From Deltaproteobacteria bacterium (GTDB taxonomy: Bacteria > Desulfobacterota > Desulfobulbia > Desulfobulbales > Desulfurivibrionaceae), in assembly GCA_021802775.1 (NCBI GenBank), contig JAJZRJ010000008.1:1-64000 (forward strand): a stretch of 64,000 nt of DNA, in the 5' to 3' direction. The notes under the pieces are model-generated. The model worked only from the letters and a program-made list of their open reading frames with translations, had not been told where the DNA came from and searched no databases. Both the position numbers and the translations under genes were made by a program. Every line of letters starts with the position of its first letter. Position 1 is the first letter of the stretch. Of the stretch, positions 2,610-60,449 are shown one piece after another.

Positions 2610-4319
2610 ATGATGCAGCCTTCCCTGCGCTGTCGCCTCACGTGGCTCCTCTGGCTGTTGCTCCTGCCGGTCGTGGCCACCGCCGCCCCCGCCGTCGACA
2701 ACCGCTACAGCGACGCCAAGGCTTACTACCAGAAGCTGCTCACCACCAAAGAGGGCAGGAGCCGCCAGCACTGGCTTGACGGCGCCAAGCGCTTCCGCAC
2801 CCTTTACCAGAAAAACCAGAATCACGAGGTGGCGCCCAAAAGCCTCTTCATGCTGGGCAACATCTACGCCGCCCTCCACGAGCGGAGCAGCAAGGCCAGC
2901 GATCTGGGCGAGGCCATCGGCTACTACGAGGATGTCGCCATCCTCTACCCAAACCATACCCTGGCGGACGATGCCCTCTTCCTCGCTGGCAATCTTTACC
3001 TGAACGCGAAGAACGCCCCCCGGAAGGCGGCCCGCACCTTTGCCAAAATCGCGGCCCTCTATCCGAGTGGCGATATGGCCACTGGCGCGGCCGAACAGCT
3101 CCACAAACTGAAGGGGCTGGATTCGCCCAGTAATGCACCGCCCACGCCTGCCGCCACTCCAGCCCCACCACCGACAGCCGCAGCAGCCACGGAATCCTGC
3201 CAGAAGGCAGAGGTGCTCTCGATCCGCCACTGGTCGAACAAGAGCTACACCCGCGTGGTGATCGAGACTGCCGCGCCGGTCACCTTCCGAAAGCAGGTGC
3301 TCGAAAAGAACGGCGACCGTCCCCGGCGCCTCTATGTCGATCTGGTCAACTGCCGCATCAGCCCCAACACCCAGCACACGCTGCCCATCGACGACGGTCT
3401 GCTCAAACAGGTGCGCAACGCCCAATTCAGCCCGGACACGGTACGGGTGGTCTTCGACACCCAGTCGGATATCTCGGATTACAAGGTCTTCAGCCTTGAA
3501 GACCCCTTCCGCATCGTGGTCGATGTGCGAAGCAACGAGGCTGTCAGCGCCAAAGCCAAGGAAAAGACAAAAGGGACCAAATCCGGCAGCATGCCAACCC
3601 TGGCCCAGCAACTGGGCCTCGGGGTGCGGCGGGTGGTGATCGATCCCGGTCATGGCGGCAAGGACCCGGGCGCCATCAGCCCGAACGGGCTTAAGGAAAA
3701 GGACATCACCCTGGCGGTGGGCAAAAAACTCGCCCAGGAACTGCATGGGCGGGGCTACGAAGTGATTCTCACCCGCGACCGCGACGTCTTCATCCCGTTG
3801 GAGGAACGCACCGCCATCGCCAACAGCAAGGAAGGCGACCTCTTCATCTCCGTCCACGTCAACGCCGCCCCCAACCAGGCGGCCAAAGGCATCGAGACCT
3901 ATGTCCTCGATCTGGCCAGCAACAAGGAGGCGATGCGAGTGGCGGCCCAGGAAAACGCCACCTCATCCAAAAACATCAGCGACCTCCAGGCCATTTTGCT
4001 CGACCTCATGAAAAACACCAAGGTGAACGAGTCGGTGAAGCTGGCCGAGGTGGTGCAGAATACCATGATAGAGGGAGTTAAACGCGACTTCGGTCAGGTG
4101 AACAATCTCGGGGTCAAGAAGGCGCCCTTCATCGTGCTGGTCGGCGCCCAGATGCCGGCGATTCTCACCGAGATCGCCTTCAGCAGCAATCCCCAGGAAG
4201 AGGAGCGGCTGCGCGACGACCGCTACCTCACCCTGGTGGCCCAGCAGATCGCCGGCGGGGTGGCCGAGTACGCCAGCAGCCTAAACCTCGCCAGCTCCCG
4301 CTATTCCGGCAGCAAATAA
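2610..4319 (+). CDS. amiC: N-acetylmuramoyl-L-alanine amidase with AMIN domain (AmiC type)
   Basis: Periplasmic zinc amidase that cleaves the amide between MurNAc and the stem peptide, typically during septum splitting. The ATG-ATG at 2610/2613 begins a signal peptide (MMQPSLRCRL, then an LLWLLLLP core and a cleavage region near ATAAPA); the frame is open upstream into mutS, but this start fits export. Order: signal peptide, helical TPR-like segment with GYYEDVAILYP (about residues 30-180), Pro/Ala linker, AMIN domain (about 200-310), Amidase_3 domain (about 340-560). Zinc and catalytic residues are visible in IDPGHGGKDPG, LKEKDI, SVHVNA and LTEIAF. The N-terminal repeat segment is an addition to the usual AMIN-amidase layout and may dock other envelope proteins. 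It follows mutS with a 37-nt gap. Confidence 0.93.
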   Translation: MMQPSLRCRLTWLLWLLLLPVVATAAPAVDNRYSDAKAYYQKLLTTKEGRSRQHWLDGAKRFRTLYQKNQNHEVAPKSLFMLGNIYAALHERSSKASDLGEAIGYYEDVAILYPNHTLADDALFLAGNLYLNAKNAPRKAARTFAKIAALYPSGDMATGAAEQLHKLKGLDSPSNAPPTPAATPAPPPTAAAATESCQKAEVLSIRHWSNKSYTRVVIETAAPVTFRKQVLEKNGDRPRRLYVDLVNCRISPNTQHTLPIDDGLLKQVRNAQFSPDTVRVVFDTQSDISDYKVFSLEDPFRIVVDVRSNEAVSAKAKEKTKGTKSGSMPTLAQQLGLGVRRVVIDPGHGGKDPGAISPNGLKEKDITLAVGKKLAQELHGRGYEVILTRDRDVFIPLEERTAIANSKEGDLFISVHVNAAPNQAAKGIETYVLDLASNKEAMRVAAQENATSSKNISDLQAILLDLMKNTKVNESVKLAEVVQNTMIEGVKRDFGQVNNLGVKKAPFIVLVGAQMPAILTEIAFSSNPQEEERLRDDRYLTLVAQQIAGGVAEYASSLNLASSRYSGSK

Positions 4320-53499: not shown

Positions 53500-53529
53500 T
53501 TGACACCCCTCTTTTTTTCTGTCTCTAAT
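53500..53529 (+). promoter_or_regulatory. Sigma-70-type promoter of the pil genes
   Basis: TTGACA (53500-53505), 18-nt spacer, TCTAAT (53524-53529; 5 of 6 to TATAAT). It faces pilM, leaving a leader of about 120 nt. Confidence 0.7.
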
Positions 53530-53655: not shown

Positions 53656-54765
53656 ATGGATTTTAAACTGCCCAATCTTCATCTGCCCTCGCGGCCAAAG
53701 GGTTCGTCTCTATCCTTTGGCAAAAAGCAGCCGCTGTCTCTAGGCCTTGACATCGGTTCGCACTCCATCAAGATCTGCGAATTCGCCCAGACCGGCAGGG
53801 GCGGCTACAGGCTTCTCGCCCTTGGCAGCGCGCTCATGCCGCCCGATGCCATGGAGGACGGCGCCCTGCTTGATCCGGGCGCCGTGGCGAAAGTAATCGC
53901 CTCTTTGGTCGGCAACCTGAAGATCAAGGGAAAACGGGTTGCCTTTTCCGTTTCCGGCTATTCCGTCATCGTGAAAAAAATCAATCTGGAAGTGATGACC
54001 GAGGCGGAACTGGAAAAGCATATCCACGAAGAGGCCGAGCAGTATATCCCCTTTGACATCAACGACGTCTACCTTGACTTCCAGGACCTGCACACCAACA
54101 CCGAAGGCGAGGAGCGCACCGACGTCATGCTGGTGGCGGCCAAACGCGAGGTGGTGGATGGCTACCTTGACATGCTCCGCACGGCCGGGCTCAAACCGGT
54201 GGTGGTGGATGTGGATGCCTTTGCCCTGGAAAATGCTTTTGAGGCCAATTTCGGCCTCAGGGACAACGTGGTGCTCATCGACATCGGCGCCTCCAAGATG
54301 AACATCAACATCATCTCCGGCGGCATCTCCACCCTGGCCCGCGATGTGGTCCTCGGCAGCCGCCAACTCACCGAGCAGATCCAGAGCCGCTTCGGCCTGA
54401 ATCATGAAGAGGCCGAAGCCCTCAAGACCGGCGCCCAACCGGCGGGCGACCTGCGACCAGAGATCGAACGCCTTTTTGCCGAAACCTGCCGTCAGTGGGT
54501 GGCCGAGATCAAACGGGCCCTCGACTTTTACGCCTCCAACTATCCCGATGCGCCCATCGACAAACTGGTACTCTCCGGCGGCGGCGCCCGCATCGCCGGT
54601 TTGGCCGACTTCATTGCCAAGGAAACCGGCATGCCGGTCGAGATTTTCAACCCCTTTGCCGAAGCAGAATTCAACACCGATGCCATTGATCCCGCCTATC
54701 TCGAGGCCATTGCCCCGCAAATGGCGCTGGCAGCCGGTCTGGCAACCCGCCCTGTGGAGTTTTAA
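53656..54765 (+). CDS. pilM: Type IV pilus assembly ATPase-like protein PilM
   Basis: 369 residues from the ATG at 53656. Actin/FtsA-like cytoplasmic platform protein with phosphate-binding motifs LGLDIGSHSIKICEFAQTG and VVLIDIGASKMNINII and the adenosine motif KLVLSGGGARIAGLADFI. PilM binds the N-terminal tail of PilN. The AGGAG nearest the start is 16 nt away, so the start is slightly uncertain. First of a coupled pilM-N-O-P run. Confidence 0.93.
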   Translation: MDFKLPNLHLPSRPKGSSLSFGKKQPLSLGLDIGSHSIKICEFAQTGRGGYRLLALGSALMPPDAMEDGALLDPGAVAKVIASLVGNLKIKGKRVAFSVSGYSVIVKKINLEVMTEAELEKHIHEEAEQYIPFDINDVYLDFQDLHTNTEGEERTDVMLVAAKREVVDGYLDMLRTAGLKPVVVDVDAFALENAFEANFGLRDNVVLIDIGASKMNINIISGGISTLARDVVLGSRQLTEQIQSRFGLNHEEAEALKTGAQPAGDLRPEIERLFAETCRQWVAEIKRALDFYASNYPDAPIDKLVLSGGGARIAGLADFIAKETGMPVEIFNPFAEAEFNTDAIDPAYLEAIAPQMALAAGLATRPVEF

Positions 54766-54771
54766 AACGGC

Positions 54772-55377
54772 ATGATCCGCATCAACCTGCTGCCCATCAA
54801 GGAAATCAAACGCAAACTCCGCCTCCGGAACGAGGTGATCCTCTTTGCCGCTTCCTTCCTCGGGGTACTGGTCGTACTCGGCGCCATCAGCCTCGGCATG
54901 GCCCAGAAGGTGAGCGCCTTGACCGAGGAGATCAAAACCCTGGAAGACAAACGCAAATCCGTCGACCGGATCGTCAAACAGATCGACAAGCTCCGGAAGG
55001 ACAAAAAAACTCTGGAGACCAAACTTGCGGCGGTTGACAAGCTCAAGTCCGACTCCCAGCTCATGGTGCATGTGCTGGATGAGGTCGCCAACCGCACCCC
55101 GACCGCCAGCATGTGGCTCACCTCGCTCAAGGTCAGCGGCACCTCCATGCAGTTGAACGGGGTTGCCCTTGATAACGCGACCATTGCCCAGTACATGCGG
55201 GCGCTGGAGGCCTCCGACTACTTCGGCCCGGCGGAACTGGCCAATGCCTCGCAAACCGTGGTGGCCGGCCAAAAGCTGAAGTCTTTCGGGCTTACCCTGG
55301 CTATCACCCCACTCCAACCGGCACCACCTGCGGCCCCGGCTGCTGCACCCGCCAAGGAGGGCGCCAAACCACAATGA
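54772..55377 (+). CDS. pilN: Type IV pilus inner-membrane protein PilN
   Basis: 201 residues. It begins MIRINLLPIKEIKRKLRLRN, the conserved INLLP motif that docks on PilM. One membrane helix follows (FAASFLGVLVVLGAISLGMA), then a periplasmic coiled coil and ferredoxin-like domain. The C-terminus has a Pro/Ala tail. It overlaps pilO by 4 nt. Confidence 0.94.
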   Translation: MIRINLLPIKEIKRKLRLRNEVILFAASFLGVLVVLGAISLGMAQKVSALTEEIKTLEDKRKSVDRIVKQIDKLRKDKKTLETKLAAVDKLKSDSQLMVHVLDEVANRTPTASMWLTSLKVSGTSMQLNGVALDNATIAQYMRALEASDYFGPAELANASQTVVAGQKLKSFGLTLAITPLQPAPPAAPAAAPAKEGAKPQ

Positions 55378-56018
55378 ACCCGAAACTTGAGGCCCTCAGC
55401 AAAGGGTTTGATGCGTTTGTCGATACCAAGGTCAGCCGCCTCACCCCACCGCACAAGCTCCTGATCTGTATCGGTGCCTGGGCGCTGCCGGCGATTGCCT
55501 GCATCTTCCTGGTGTTCATGCCGAAAAGCACGGAAATCAACCAACTGAAAGGGAAGAAGGCCCGGCTCGAACAGGAACTGCAGAAAGTCGAAAAAATCGC
55601 CAAGGACCTCGACAAACATCGGGCCGAGATGCGGGCGGTGGAGGAACAGTTCAAGGCGGCCTCGCTCCTGCTGCCGGAACAGAAAGAGATTCCCAACCTC
55701 CTCACCAATATCTCCGGCCAGGGTACCAATTCAGGGCTTGAATTCCTTTCCTTCCAGCCGAAGCCGGAGGTGCCCAAGGAGTTCTATGCCGAGATCCCGG
55801 TGGACATTGCCGTCTCCGGCCCGTATCACAGCGTCGGGGTCTTTTTGGACAAGATCAGCAAGCTGCCGCGCATTGTCTCGGTGGTGAACCTCAATATGGG
55901 CACCCCCACCCAGGTCGGCAAGGAAATGTTCCTCAACTCCACCTTTAATCTGGTGACGTATCGTTTTATCGAAACACCACCAGCGGATGCCAATGCAAAA
56001 GGAAAGAAGAAAAAATAG
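55374..56018 (+). CDS. pilO: Type IV pilus inner-membrane protein PilO
   Basis: 214 residues. A short cytoplasmic segment, a membrane helix (ICIGAWALPAIACIFLVFMP), a coiled coil (KARLEQELQKVEKIAKDLDK) and the PilO-type domain (IPNLLTNISGQGTNSGLEFL). It pairs with PilN. Its end overlaps pilP by 32 nt. Confidence 0.94.
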   Translation: MNPKLEALSKGFDAFVDTKVSRLTPPHKLLICIGAWALPAIACIFLVFMPKSTEINQLKGKKARLEQELQKVEKIAKDLDKHRAEMRAVEEQFKAASLLLPEQKEIPNLLTNISGQGTNSGLEFLSFQPKPEVPKEFYAEIPVDIAVSGPYHSVGVFLDKISKLPRIVSVVNLNMGTPTQVGKEMFLNSTFNLVTYRFIETPPADANAKGKKKK

Positions 56019-56592
56019 CGGCCCGGTGACACGCCACGTCATAACGCTTACCGTTGGCCTGGGGCTGGCGCTGGCCTGCTTTCCGGCACAGTTTACCTCT
56101 GCGCAACAAGGAGCGGCACCGCCACCGGCTTCCGCTGCGCCAACACCTGTGCCCTCGCCACCGCCACCATCCCCAACAGAATCAAACCCGATGGCGGACA
56201 TCGAAAAACTGCTGCAGGAAAACACGCTGGCCTCTGTCTTTGTGTACCAGCGCGAGGGTCGGCCCGATCCCTTCTTCCCCTTCCTCACCCAGCAACCCCA
56301 GAGGGGGGGCGGAACGGGTGGTGAATCCACCGGGATGCAGCGCTTCGACCCCGGCCAATTGCGGCTGGTGGCCATTATCAAGACGGCGAAGGGGCGGGTG
56401 GCCATGGTCCAGGATTCCGCCGGCATCGGCTACACGCTCCGCCGCGGCTCCCGCATCGGCCGCAATGGCGAGGTGGTCGATATCCTCGCCAACAAGGTGA
56501 TCATCCGGCAGGAGGCCTTTTCAGCGACCAAGGAAAAACAGTACCGCACCACGGAGATGGTGCTAACGAAAGACGGAGACAAGAAGCCATGA
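55987..56592 (+). CDS. pilP: Type IV pilus lipoprotein-like PilP
   Basis: 201 residues. Hydrophobic export segment (VITLTVGLGLALACFPAQF); a Cys is inside but without a clear lipobox. A Pro-rich linker is followed by the PilP domain (RPDPFFPFL, FDPGQLRLVAIIKTAKGRVA, RRGSRIGRNGEVVDILANKV). PilP bridges PilN/O to the secretin. It overlaps the next gene by 4 nt (ATGA). Confidence 0.9.
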   Translation: MPMQKERRKNSGPVTRHVITLTVGLGLALACFPAQFTSAQQGAAPPPASAAPTPVPSPPPPSPTESNPMADIEKLLQENTLASVFVYQREGRPDPFFPFLTQQPQRGGGTGGESTGMQRFDPGQLRLVAIIKTAKGRVAMVQDSAGIGYTLRRGSRIGRNGEVVDILANKVIIRQEAFSATKEKQYRTTEMVLTKDGDKKP

Positions 56593-58652
56593 TCGTGCGC
56601 GCCCGACTGCCCTTTATACTCACCGCCCTGCTGGCGCTGGTGCTGTCATCGGCTCGCTGGACCGGCACGGCGTCAGGCGCCGCTGCTGTGGAAAAGGAGC
56701 CAACATATCAGATATCCGTCATCAAGGTGGAACAAAACGCGGATGAATTCCGACTCCGGATTCAGGGCAACGCTCCCCCCACCTATACGATATACGAACT
56801 CTTTGAGCCGCTGCGGGTCATCATCGACGTGGCGGATGCAACGCTGATCGCCACCCCGACCCTGCCGACGGATTTACCGCAGGGACCGATCCAACAGGTC
56901 AAGACCCAGGTGCTGCACGAACAGGAACCGGCCATTACCCGGGTGGAAGTCGTTCTGGCCGAGGATCGCGGCTATTCGGTGGAGCGGCGCAGCAACGATA
57001 TCCTCATCGCCTTTGCCAAGGAGGTCAAGAGCGAGAAGGTCGCCCTGCCCAAATCAAAAAAGACCGTGGCAACAAAGACCGGAGCCGCCAGCCAGATAAA
57101 AACCGGTGGCGCGGCGGCAACCCTGCTCCGGGAGGTGGTCGTCGATACCAGCGACCCGGTGGTCACCAAGGTTTTCCTCCGGGCGAATGGCCCCATTGCA
57201 AAATTCAAAAAGGCGGAAATCAAGAAAACCGCCACTCGTCCCGATCGGATGTACATCGATATCCCGGGCGTTAAACTGCCGGCCAAATCGCTCCGGCACA
57301 AGGTCGGCACCACGCTGGAAGGTGTTCGGGCGGCGCAGCGCGACGGCACGGTGCGGGTCGTCTTCGACTCCGGCCTTGCGGCACTCTTTGCCTACGATGT
57401 GCAACCCCAACCCGACGGCATGGTGGTTACTATTGCCGCTCCGGCGGAGTCGGCCAGCCTGAAAACTGTCTCGCCGACCCCGCCGCCGGCTCCCGCGACC
57501 ACCGACCCCGCAACCGCGCCGCAACCAGCGGGTGAAAAAGGCATATCCGCCTTGCTGCTCGCCGCGGAAAACGCCGAGGAACTGATCAAACCAATCCTCC
57601 CGCCGCTCAAGAAAACCAAGACCGCCGCGGGAACGGCAACCGTCAAACCGGCTAAAGGGAAGGGAAAGAAGGCACCGGCCATGAAAGTGGCCAAATCCGC
57701 CCCTGCTGCCGACACGTACAGCTTTGCCGGCTACACCAAACAACGGATCAGTGTGGACTTCTACAAGATCGATCTCCACAACGTCTTCCGCCTCTTTGGC
57801 GAGATCAGCGGCCAGAACATCGTGGTAGACGAGGCGGTCAACGGTACCCTCACGCTGGCGCTCAATGAAGTGCCGTGGGACTTTGCCCTGGACATCATTC
57901 TCAACCTCAAGGACCTCCAGAAGGAGGAACGATTCAACACCATCGTCATCGCGCCCAAGGCCAAGCAATTTATCTGGCCCAAGGTCGCCACCCAGAATAT
58001 CGCCTTCTCTGCCGACGGCGGCGAGAGGCTTGAGCCGATCTCCATCAAACAGCGGATCGAGACCCCCAAGGGCGTAATCGAGGCCAAGGCCATCATCCGC
58101 GAAGCCAGCGCCCTGGACAGCAAGGGCGACTATGCCGGCGCCCTGGCCGGCTACGAAAAGGCCTTCGCCTTGTGGCCGGATAATGACCAGCTGGCCGGAC
58201 GGATGGCGACCATCTGCCTCGTGCATCTCGGCCAAAATGCCAAGGCCGCCCATTATGCCAAGGCCGCCTTTGCCGCCGATCCGACCAATCTGAACGCGGC
58301 GCTCCAGGCAGCCATCGCCCTGGCCAACATGAAGAAGGTGCCCGAGGCCAAGGAATACTTCGACAAGGCCATCAACAACGACCAGGCAGCGGCAGAGGCG
58401 CTTCTCAGCTATGCCGCCTTTGCCGAGGAATACAACAGTTACAACGGCGCTCTTGCCCTGCTGGACCGGCACGCGGAACTCCATGGCGACACGCTGGACA
58501 GCATGGTCGCCACGGCCCGCCTCCTCGACAAGAAGGGCGACCGCCGGGCGGCGGCGGAGCAATACCGGACCGTGCTGCTCTCCGGTTACGAACTGCCGGC
58601 GGATCTCCAGCAATACATCAAGGGCCGCATCGCCGCGGCCGAGAATATGTAG
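56589..58652 (+). CDS. AMIN/STN-domain pilus protein with C-terminal TPRs (PilQ N-terminal part without the pore)
   Basis: 687 residues with a signal peptide (LPFILTALLALVLSSARW). Two AMIN-type domains (about 40-150 and 185-295) precede a Pro/Ala/Lys-rich linker. A secretin STN/N0-type domain follows (about 380-465: RISVDFYKIDLHNVFRLFGE, ALNEVPWDFALDIILNLKDL), which in PilQ leads into the pore. Here the pore is missing: the chain continues into TPR-like repeats (ALDSKGDYAGALAGYEKAFA, KEYFDKAINNDQAAAEALLS). It is followed at once by a separate secretin. Probably a periplasmic scaffold binding peptidoglycan, PilP and the secretin. Confidence 0.85.
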   Translation: MIVRARLPFILTALLALVLSSARWTGTASGAAAVEKEPTYQISVIKVEQNADEFRLRIQGNAPPTYTIYELFEPLRVIIDVADATLIATPTLPTDLPQGPIQQVKTQVLHEQEPAITRVEVVLAEDRGYSVERRSNDILIAFAKEVKSEKVALPKSKKTVATKTGAASQIKTGGAAATLLREVVVDTSDPVVTKVFLRANGPIAKFKKAEIKKTATRPDRMYIDIPGVKLPAKSLRHKVGTTLEGVRAAQRDGTVRVVFDSGLAALFAYDVQPQPDGMVVTIAAPAESASLKTVSPTPPPAPATTDPATAPQPAGEKGISALLLAAENAEELIKPILPPLKKTKTAAGTATVKPAKGKGKKAPAMKVAKSAPAADTYSFAGYTKQRISVDFYKIDLHNVFRLFGEISGQNIVVDEAVNGTLTLALNEVPWDFALDIILNLKDLQKEERFNTIVIAPKAKQFIWPKVATQNIAFSADGGERLEPISIKQRIETPKGVIEAKAIIREASALDSKGDYAGALAGYEKAFALWPDNDQLAGRMATICLVHLGQNAKAAHYAKAAFAADPTNLNAALQAAIALANMKKVPEAKEYFDKAINNDQAAAEALLSYAAFAEEYNSYNGALALLDRHAELHGDTLDSMVATARLLDKKGDRRAAAEQYRTVLLSGYELPADLQQYIKGRIAAAENM

Positions 58653-58721
58653 TTACGCTTTCCAAGCAAACGGATGACGCTAATGACCCGACAAGAACAA
58701 CCCCGGCCCAAAGGCACGACC

Positions 58722-60368
58722 ATGAAACGCTCGCAACCAGTGATACGTATCGCGATAGTGGCCCTGCTCGCGCTGCTCTGCTCCTGTGCTCCGGCGACGA
58801 AGACCAAACCGGCGGAATCGGCCCAGGCCAAGGAAGTTGAACAAAACACGCTGGAGCCGGGGCAGTTGCCGGTCCGTTTCCAGCAGCCCTCCTATGTGCT
58901 GAAAGAGTCCGCGGCCGGATCGCAACTCGGGCTTGGCGAAACAGCGGAAATCAAGATCCCCATCGGCGCCGACATCTCCTCCACCACCGGGCCGGTGGCC
59001 TTGCGCGACATCCTGAAGCGCCTGGCCGCCCTCAAGAAGATGAACATCAGCTGGGCCAGCGATGTGGACCAGTCATCCATGGTGGACGTGGATATCCGGG
59101 CTGAGGATGACTTTTTCGAGGCCATCGACAACATCCTCCGGCAGGTCGATTACTATCATGAGATCAAAGGCAACACCATCGTGGTGCAATACCGCGAGAC
59201 CAGGAAGTTCCACGTGGCCATGCCCTTCATGAAATCGACGTACAATACCGCAGTGGGTGGCGATGTCCTGGGGAGCAGCACGGGTGCCAGTGGCGCGAGC
59301 GGCGTTAAAGGAAATATCCAGATCACCAGCGAAAACAACCAGTTTGACATCTGGGACAACATCAAGAAAAACATCGACCAAATCCTGGAGATATGGGAGG
59401 AGACCGTTCCCCCGCCAGCCGCTGCAACCGCCGCAGCCCCGCAGGCCGGTGCGCCGCAGCCCGCCCAAGCCGCCCAACCGGCCGCCGCCGCAGCGACCAA
59501 ACGGAATGTCCAGGCCGGCAAGGGCTACTACAGCATCGATAAGCCCATCGGGCTGATCACCGTCACGGCCCCGCGGCCGCTGGTCGAAAAAATCGGCACA
59601 TATCTGGATAACCTGAAAAAGGAACTCTACCGTCAGGTTTCCATCGAGGCCAAGATCGTGGAGGTCACCATTGATGACACCTCCAAACGGGGTATAGACT
59701 GGAGCGGCTTCCTGACGGGCAAAGGATTGTCAATGACCCTCTTTGGCAGCTCGGGCGTTATCTACGATCCTAATCGGGACAACAGGAAACGCGGCGTGAC
59801 CGAGATTGCCGTGACCGGCAATCCCTTTAAGGTTGCTTTGGACTTCCTGGACGAACAGGGCCCCTCCAAGGTGCTGGCCAACCCGAAGCTGAGTGTCATG
59901 AATGGCCAGCCGGCCCTGATCAGCGCGGGCGACAGCATCAAGTATATCGACAAAATCGACGCAACGGTCAGCGAAAGCGGCGTCGTCACCTATTCTGCCA
60001 CCACGGCAACCCTCATGTCCGGCTTGGGCATGTCGGTGCTCGCCACCATCATGGATAACGACGAAATTATTCTCAGCCTCACGCCGGTCACCTCAAAACT
60101 GGAAAACAATGAAATCGAATACATTCCTATCGGTGCCGGAACGGTGGGTGTTCCCAGGATCAAGCTTAGGGAAATGAACACCACGGTACGCGTCAAGAGC
60201 GGCGAGGTTTTGGTGATCGGCGGGCTGATCGACAACGCCGAGAGCGATGATCGCACCAAGATTCCGTTTTTGGGAGATATCCCGGGAGTTGGTTCCCTCT
60301 TCTCGCACTCTGAAAAAAATACGAAAAAAACCGAGCTGGTCATCATGCTCCAACCCAAGATTCTCTAA
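58722..60368 (+). CDS. MshL/PilQ-like secretin lipoprotein
   Basis: 548 residues from the ATG at 58722, with AAGG upstream and a lipoprotein signal (IRIAIVALLALLCSC, lipobox LLCSC). The N0-type region (VALRDILKRLAALKKMNISW) and MshL-like segment (RKFHVAMPFMKSTYNTAVGG) are followed by the secretin pore (VSIEAKIVEVTIDDTSKRGI, VLANPKLSVMNGQPALISAG, GEVLVIGGLIDNAESDDRTK, IPFLGDIPGVGSLFSHSEKN). It forms the outer-membrane pilus channel. The lack of AMIN domains fits their presence in the preceding gene. Confidence 0.92.
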   Translation: MKRSQPVIRIAIVALLALLCSCAPATKTKPAESAQAKEVEQNTLEPGQLPVRFQQPSYVLKESAAGSQLGLGETAEIKIPIGADISSTTGPVALRDILKRLAALKKMNISWASDVDQSSMVDVDIRAEDDFFEAIDNILRQVDYYHEIKGNTIVVQYRETRKFHVAMPFMKSTYNTAVGGDVLGSSTGASGASGVKGNIQITSENNQFDIWDNIKKNIDQILEIWEETVPPPAAATAAAPQAGAPQPAQAAQPAAAAATKRNVQAGKGYYSIDKPIGLITVTAPRPLVEKIGTYLDNLKKELYRQVSIEAKIVEVTIDDTSKRGIDWSGFLTGKGLSMTLFGSSGVIYDPNRDNRKRGVTEIAVTGNPFKVALDFLDEQGPSKVLANPKLSVMNGQPALISAGDSIKYIDKIDATVSESGVVTYSATTATLMSGLGMSVLATIMDNDEIILSLTPVTSKLENNEIEYIPIGAGTVGVPRIKLREMNTTVRVKSGEVLVIGGLIDNAESDDRTKIPFLGDIPGVGSLFSHSEKNTKKTELVIMLQPKIL

Positions 60369-60391
60369 GATCACAGCAAGGCATGCAAAAG

Positions 60392-60418
60392 AAAAAGCCC
60401 GGCAGAGCCGGGCTTTTT
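60392..60418. terminator. Bidirectional terminator between the secretin gene and secB
   Basis: AAAAAGCCCGGC / GCCGGGCTTTTT, a 12-bp stem with a 3-nt loop. A and T tracts on both sides let it end both convergent transcripts. Confidence 0.93.
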
Positions 60419-60449
60419 CTTTGCTTACCTTTTCGCTCAACGCGGCTGC

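Follow-up and report, generated by a model that had tools for sequence, protein, structure and literature searches.

A pore-less PilQ-like protein and a separate MshL-clade lipoprotein secretin encoded after pilMNOP in Desulfobulbales

In the usual view of type IVa pili (T4aP), the exit pore is always PilQ, with all its domains on one chain. In the window analyzed here, the first 64,000 nucleotides of contig JAJZRJ010000008.1 of a Deltaproteobacteria bacterium, pilM, pilN, pilO and pilP are followed by a gene for a PilQ-like protein that has no pore, which we call the scaffold, and then by a gene for a secretin of another clade. This raises the question of whether the two chains together stand in for PilQ, what each of them would contribute, and whether the genome encodes another exit pore that could serve the pilus.

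Two chains downstream of pilMNOP

The reading frame of the scaffold is intact (Table 1). Pfam models recognized two AMIN stretches (E value of 2.6e-14), an STN domain at residues 410 to 457 (1.9e-7) and TPRs at residues 499 to 660 (several models), and no secretin pore model matched in this search of the chain. The top NCBIfam match was the STN part of PilQ (TIGR02515, residues 385 to 459, 1.6e-18), with a score of 66.9 bits that covers the STN domain only and stays far from the cut-off of 284.35; the scaffold is thus not a PilQ in the sense of one chain running from STN to pore, although it does carry the AMIN and STN combination of PilQ. The best sequence match in the PDB was PilQ of M. xanthus (2.5e-23), and this protein also came first (3.1e-13), followed by TPR proteins, in a Foldseek search with an AlphaFold2 model of the scaffold built on 41 homologues. 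In this model (mean pLDDT of 82), two beta domains at residues 40 to 143 and 179 to 283 and the STN domain at residues 386 to 456 precede a block of 11 TPR helices at residues 494 to 686 (pLDDT of about 91 to 98). The STN domain is the most conserved part of the scaffold, with a mean commonest-residue frequency of 0.77, compared to 0.53 for the TPR part and 0.46 to 0.49 for the AMIN domains. The TPR part overlays MamA, PilF, PilW and many unrelated TPR proteins (Z of 16 to 18) and, since the match is tied among them, the fold cannot name its partner. The matches to MshN, TadD and PilF were likewise generic and shared with unrelated TPRs, and TIGR02521 gave just 25 bits (cut-off of 154). The scaffold has the TPR fold of pilotins such as PilF, PilW and TadD, but its plain signal peptide has no lipobox, so that it is not a lipoprotein as they are. 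Beyond the scaffold, a single further AMIN domain was found in the genome, at positions 3222 to 3488 (+) in an ORF of 588 aa close to where the window begins.

Table 1. Coordinates of the genes, domains and signals of the locus, numbered from the first letter of the window
Feature	Position	Strand	Basis
pilM	53656..54765	+	PilM_2 6.2e-77; TIGR01175 272.6 bits (cut-off 133)
pilN	54772..55377	+	Pfam PilN 1.1e-19
pilO	55374..56018	+	Pfam PilO 1.8e-43
pilP	55987..56592	+	Pfam PilP 2.6e-6, above gathering score; 4 bp overlap with scaffold start
Scaffold: signal peptide, two AMIN, STN/N0, TPR (687 aa)	56589..58652	+	Pfam, NCBIfam, PDB match, AlphaFold2, conservation
AMIN domain 1 (residues 40-143)	56706..57017	+	Pfam AMIN 45-132; AlphaFold2 beta domain
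AMIN domain 2 (residues 179-283)	57123..57437	+	Second Pfam AMIN stretch; AlphaFold2
STN/N0 domain (residues 384-458)	57738..57962	+	Pfam STN; PilQ-STN bit scores; conservation
TPR superhelix, 11 helices (residues 491-687), where the N1-pore region is expected	58059..58649	+	Pfam, AlphaFold2, fold comparison
MshL-clade lipoprotein secretin	58722..60368	+	TIGR02519 269.2 bits; tree; fold match BfpB
Lipobox cysteine codon (Cys22 of the 548-aa form)	58785..58787	+	Invariant in 38/38 homologues
N0-like domain of the secretin (about residues 90-170)	58989..59231	+	AlphaFold2 fold; own HMM
Secretin pore domain	59847..60365	+	Pfam Secretin 392-564
Terminator-like hairpin, 16 pairs then T-rich, directly 3' of the secretin gene	60388..60422	+	Pattern match only

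The second chain matches the Pfam secretin domain (9.9e-40) and scores above the curated equivalog cut-off of the MshL model TIGR02519 (250.2 bits), just below which the secretins of some relatives fall (range of 243 to 254 bits). On the PilQ model TIGR02515 it obtained 125.9 bits, over the pore part only, and did not reach the cut-off of 284.35. Its start is likely the ATG at 58722 rather than the ATG at 58674 listed for the ORF, as the former fits the signal peptide and the homologues. In the AlphaFold2 model, an N0-like domain and a second alpha/beta element accompany the barrel, and the top fold match was BfpB (2.4e-23). The N0-like domain is strongly conserved, and its HMM gave 118 to 150 bits inside its group and at most 13.7 bits on scaffolds. 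Scaffold-linked secretins end at the barrel, with a tail of 0 to 11 residues and no S-domain, whereas the tail counts 24 to 54 residues in MshL of the MSHA pilus and 61 in GspD. An invariant lipobox together with the missing C-terminal tail indicates that the secretin likely reaches the outer membrane (OM) unaided, and no PilW/PilF-type pilotin scored above the cut-off of its model in the 59 genomes searched. The initial annotation, which described an AMIN and STN chain ending in TPRs instead of a pore, followed by an MshL-like lipidated secretin, is thus borne out for the first chain by Pfam, NCBIfam and AlphaFold2 alike and for the second by the TIGR02519 score and the lipobox cysteine.

The genes pilM, pilN, pilO and pilP precede this pair in the order of the T4aP alignment and secretin operon (pilMNOPQ); for pilM, the ATG at 53656 is a likelier start than the listed TTG at 53500. 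The overlap of pilP with the scaffold gene and the hairpin behind the secretin gene make a single operon likely, and a sigma-70 promoter scan found no match. Two tandem pilP genes lie 5' of the scaffold gene in one Desulfobulbaceae MAG (L022:8193-9246).

Elsewhere in the same genome we found PilB (756 bits, cut-off of 675.65) along with a second PilB/TfpB-like ATPase, two PilT proteins above their cut-off, and, on contig 18, PilC, whose best match (NF052606, 571.8 bits) stays below the equivalog cut-off of 700. The genome therefore holds PilB, PilC and PilT as expected of a type IVa pilus, and judging from gene content a retractable T4aP would be encoded in scattered loci, apart from a second, MSH-like system on contig 50. 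A PilB of 740 aa on contig 69 (L014:7787-10006) harbors an N-terminal MshE-related c-di-GMP domain, and its C-terminal part (residues 605 to 731) matches CRP-type cyclic-nucleotide regulators; these domains suggest that pilus extension may be under nucleotide control.

Occurrence and descent of the pair

A six-row profile of the scaffold was searched across the genomes of the order, which we take from the named relatives (Desulfobulbaceae and Desulfurivibrionaceae MAGs) to be Desulfobulbales, a group active in sulfur cycling. The scaffold was found in 174 of 194 genomes, in 132 of the 141 near-complete ones and in 60 of 62 genera, which leaves about 10% of the genomes without a detected scaffold, gaps that are only partly explained. 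A phylum-wide draw of 345 genomes gave 40 matches at 1e-35: 14 inside the order, 19 outside it, mainly over the STN-TPR part, and 7 over the AMIN-STN part only, in frames of 715 to 857 aa. The two AMIN-STN-only matches that we read (L068 and L069, family f30) turned out to be canonical PilQ, a single chain of about 800 aa encoded in the same slot after pilMNOP, which is the strongest argument for reading scaffold and secretin as a stand-in for PilQ.

We read 41 distinct scaffold loci, and the next gene encoded a secretin (A2-type) in all of them; pilM, pilN, pilO and pilP lie 5' of the scaffold gene wherever the contig permits, although pilP escaped detection in L065. Of these loci, 15 come from outside the order, from about ten other families, and have the STN-TPR form, mostly without AMIN: the domain is absent in 11 of them, and the 4 others (families f60 and f100) align over one AMIN-like region. 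Recurrence across the order and constant gene order indicate that the arrangement is not due to chance. Outside the phylum, a plasmid collection searched for STN-TPR proteins returned only the STN domains of PilQ. An AMIN/STN fragment on the E. coli plasmid pYDC637 (L147:4669-6186) was rejected as a natural scaffold, being a PilQ apparently truncated near a group II intron.

Canonical PilQ was searched with PF00263, PF11741 and TIGR02515 in the genome itself and in the order, and in none of 146 genomes of the order did a chain with AMIN, STN and pore turn up. Frames of 700 to 850 aa matched the PilQ model from about position 98 only and are GspD-like, and the frames that do run from STN to pore measure 450 to 600 aa. 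In five closed genomes that encode the scaffold (G011, G088, G111, G143 and G153), all matches to the PilQ model were GspD-like, leaving the scaffold-secretin pair as the sole candidate for the T4aP exit pore. The pair is thus fixed behind pilMNOP across the order and in further families, canonical PilQ is absent from the genomes of the order searched, and the initial proposal that the function of PilQ is split between a scaffold and a separate lipoprotein secretin is upheld by the PilQ-like AMIN and STN domains, the slot shared with one-chain PilQ and this absence.

The two halves differ in descent. An HMM of the scaffold STN gave 55 to 79 bits on canonical PilQ of Desulfobacterota, Neisseria, Acinetobacter and Aeromonas, 5 to 30 bits on the secretins of MSH-like clusters, 12 to 18 bits on true MSHA MshL, 0.4 bits on E. 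coli GspD and at most 6.6 bits on the N0 of the partner secretin, showing that the scaffold is the front half of PilQ and not a detached MshL domain. For the secretin, we built a secretin-domain tree of 80 proteins, 30 of them scaffold-linked secretins, with named MSHA MshL references from Legionella and Aeromonas records. The scaffold-linked secretins formed one clade (support of 99/99) inside an MshL-like group (100/99) whose other members are two plasmid secretins and secretins encoded in this phylum by GspE-GspF-ExeA clusters. MSHA MshL of Aeromonas and Legionella and two relatives fell outside this group (86/73), so that the scaffold-linked secretins are not part of the MSHA MshL clade, and PilQ, GspD and the secretins of MSH-like clusters were found on the opposite side of the tree (100/98). 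On this tree the donor lineage of the secretin would be the wider MshL clade and not the MSHA locus itself. In the available text of Denise et al. (2019, PMC6668835), mshM, mshE and mshG encoded with the secretin are mandatory in the MSH model; the window locus has pilMNOP and lacks these three genes. Of the hybrid of PilQ and MSHA-type machines suggested initially, the placement of the secretin in the MshL clade stands, but its nearest kin are not MSHA secretins and the platform is that of a T4aP, with PilMNOP here and PilB, PilC and two PilT elsewhere. Clusters of GspE, GspF and usually an ExeA-like ATPase with an MshL-clade secretin, the closest kin of the window secretin, are widespread in other families of the phylum (L120-L124, L127-L131, L133, L134, L136, L137 and L139).

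A possible adaptor and its alternatives

We favor, at a probability of roughly 0.6, the reading that two proteins take the place of PilQ in this T4aP operon: a self-contained, foreign secretin and the scaffold, which keeps the periplasmic front of PilQ and acts as an adaptor between PilP and peptidoglycan on one side and that secretin on the other. The C-terminal domain of PilP binds the N0 domain of PilQ in Neisseria (PMC3441751), and by analogy the scaffold STN would dock to PilP of the inner-membrane alignment complex. The AMIN domains, which in PilQ of Pseudomonas bind peptidoglycan and position PilMNOP (PMC5285504), would hold the scaffold on peptidoglycan. The TPR superhelix may then recruit or align the secretin from the periplasmic side and so link the STN ring with the periplasmic part of the secretin, which itself would get to the OM by its own lipid anchor. 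Given this anchor, we consider it more probable that the TPR part bridges two rings as an adaptor than that it acts as a classical or TadD-like pilotin, and the invariant lipobox, the missing S-domain and the lack of PilW/PilF matches fit an adaptor. Extension and retraction would probably be driven by the PilB, PilC and PilT encoded elsewhere in the genome. Several findings count against the adaptor: the conserved N0-like domain of the secretin could dock to PilP directly, the loss of AMIN in about eight families indicates that anchoring to peptidoglycan is not universal, the tied TPR fold does not point to the secretin as partner, and a scaffold went undetected in about 10% of the genomes of the order.

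In an alternative reading, the scaffold is only an assembly factor or pilotin-like chaperone, its TPR part aiding oligomerization of the secretin and its AMIN and STN domains merely placing it, while the N0-like domain of the secretin contacts PilP. TPR proteins work with secretins in T4aP and Tad systems and probably in MSH systems, where TPR pilotins bind secretins and PilF, PilW, TadD and MshN act on them (PMC10499894). The overlay of the scaffold TPR on PilF and PilW (Z of about 16), the strong conservation of the N0-like domain of the secretin and the failure to detect PilW or PilF above cut-off are all in line with such a role. However, the STN domain is more conserved than the TPR part and keeps the N0 signature of PilQ, which would be needless in a mere chaperone; a TadD-like pilotin would find no C-terminal S-domain on the secretin, which carries a lipid anchor; and the TPR matches are tied with generic TPRs. 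We therefore regard a pure chaperone as an unlikely, though serious, alternative to the adaptor.

Other secretins and comparison with known systems

A full-length PilQ encoded elsewhere would have spoken against a split, and none was found. The genome, which is 91% complete, encodes just one secretin besides that of the window, on contig 50; it belongs to the PilQ clade, passes the PilQ cut-off (293.4 bits versus 284.35) and has no AMIN domain. It lies in an MSH-like cluster (L006:10380-18580 and L007:85-5801) with genes for a GspC/MshK-like (PilP/GspC-like) protein, PilN- and PilO-like proteins, GspF, pilins, a DUF6701 protein and two ATPases, one ExeA/MshM-like and one with an MshE-related c-di-GMP domain; in a tree of ATPases the cluster's ATPase formed a clade of its own, with no resolved link to MshE. 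One could argue that the T4aP uses this secretin, which passes the PilQ cut-off in the same genome, and that the window secretin has another function. Yet the GspC/PilP-like, PilN/O-like, ATPase and GspF genes that flank it make up a set of its own, near the DUF6701 gene. A secretin of this type turned up in just 26 of the 78 genomes of the order examined, with the neighboring cluster genes kept at each locus, whereas the scaffold-secretin pair is nearly universal. Moreover, there are closed genomes that have pilMNOP, scaffold and secretin and no PilQ-clade secretin running from STN to pore. Use of the contig-50 secretin by the T4aP is hence improbable. That a one-chain PilQ was broken by a frameshift or misassembly beside an unrelated secretin, for which nothing speaks beyond the gene being split, can be dismissed, since the frames are open, 41 loci share the same gene order across many independently assembled genomes, some of them closed, a conserved TPR part takes the place of the pore, and the secretin comes from another clade.

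A third type of secretin, of the PilQ clade, running from STN to pore and 510 to 590 aa long, occurs in the order too, in about 15 genomes; in all three of its loci that we read (L099, L100 and L102), a gene for a GspE-type ATPase lies next to it. True MSH loci look different (L125, L126 and L140). Two of them, in genomes G353 and G307 (L125 and L126), are full MSHA-type loci of this phylum with MshI, L, M, N, E and G; they lie outside the Gamma-proteobacteria, Chrysiogenetes and Epsilon-proteobacteria to which the available text of Denise et al. (2019, PMC6668835) confines MSH.

By sequence kinship, secretin types and pilus clusters appear to be crossed over in this genome. It is conceivable, though we advance this only tentatively, that a PilQ deprived of its pore turned into a ring of TPR adaptors joining PilMNOP to an MshL-clade secretin, a PilQ-clade secretin having been taken up by the co-resident MSH-like pilus. 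If so, two pilus machines of one cell would have exchanged their OM pores in both directions, and the pore would be a swappable module provided that an N0-bearing adaptor is kept. Against a strict two-way swap, the secretin of the co-resident cluster in families outside the order (L120-L124) is of the MshL clade as well, and the ATPase of the MSH-like cluster has no resolved tie to MshE.

Repeated co-option of secretins across the superfamily is described in the available text of Denise et al. (2019, PMC6668835). We found no description of a split scaffold/secretin arrangement in the literature searched, a scope that included this text and left out most subscription journals. If the two chains replace PilQ, the standard picture of how a T4aP spans the cell envelope fails in this order and some relatives, and surveys that seek a PilQ-matching secretin in pilMNOPQ could call these bacteria PilQ-less or mistype the system as MSH.

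Compared to known systems, the window secretin resembles MshL of the MSHA pilus (TIGR02519) in its score above the MshL cut-off, its lipobox and its membership of the same large clade, but it is linked to pilMNOP and not to mshI-mshQ, its closest kin are non-MSHA secretins, and its tail is shorter. With BfpB, the secretin of a type IVb pilus, it shares the fold and the lipoprotein character, but the operon here is of the T4aP type (PilMNOP) and no BfpG-like partner was identified. Like PilF/PilW, TadD and MshN, the scaffold is a TPR protein encoded with a secretin, with 11 helices as in TadD; unlike them, its TPR part is fused to AMIN and STN domains and the lipid anchor is borne by the secretin. 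With PilQ of M. xanthus, Neisseria and Acinetobacter (TIGR02515) it has in common the slot after pilMNOP, the signal peptide, AMIN and STN/N0; what differs is that the pore is on a separate chain outside the PilQ clade, with TPRs in its place. On its gene set and secretin tree the arrangement would be a variant of T4aP rather than a member of MSHA. This natural split separates the peptidoglycan anchor, the PilP dock and the pore, which are fused elsewhere, and makes it testable which part of PilQ keeps the two halves of the machine, inner and outer, in register and whether a secretin can be exchanged between filament systems.
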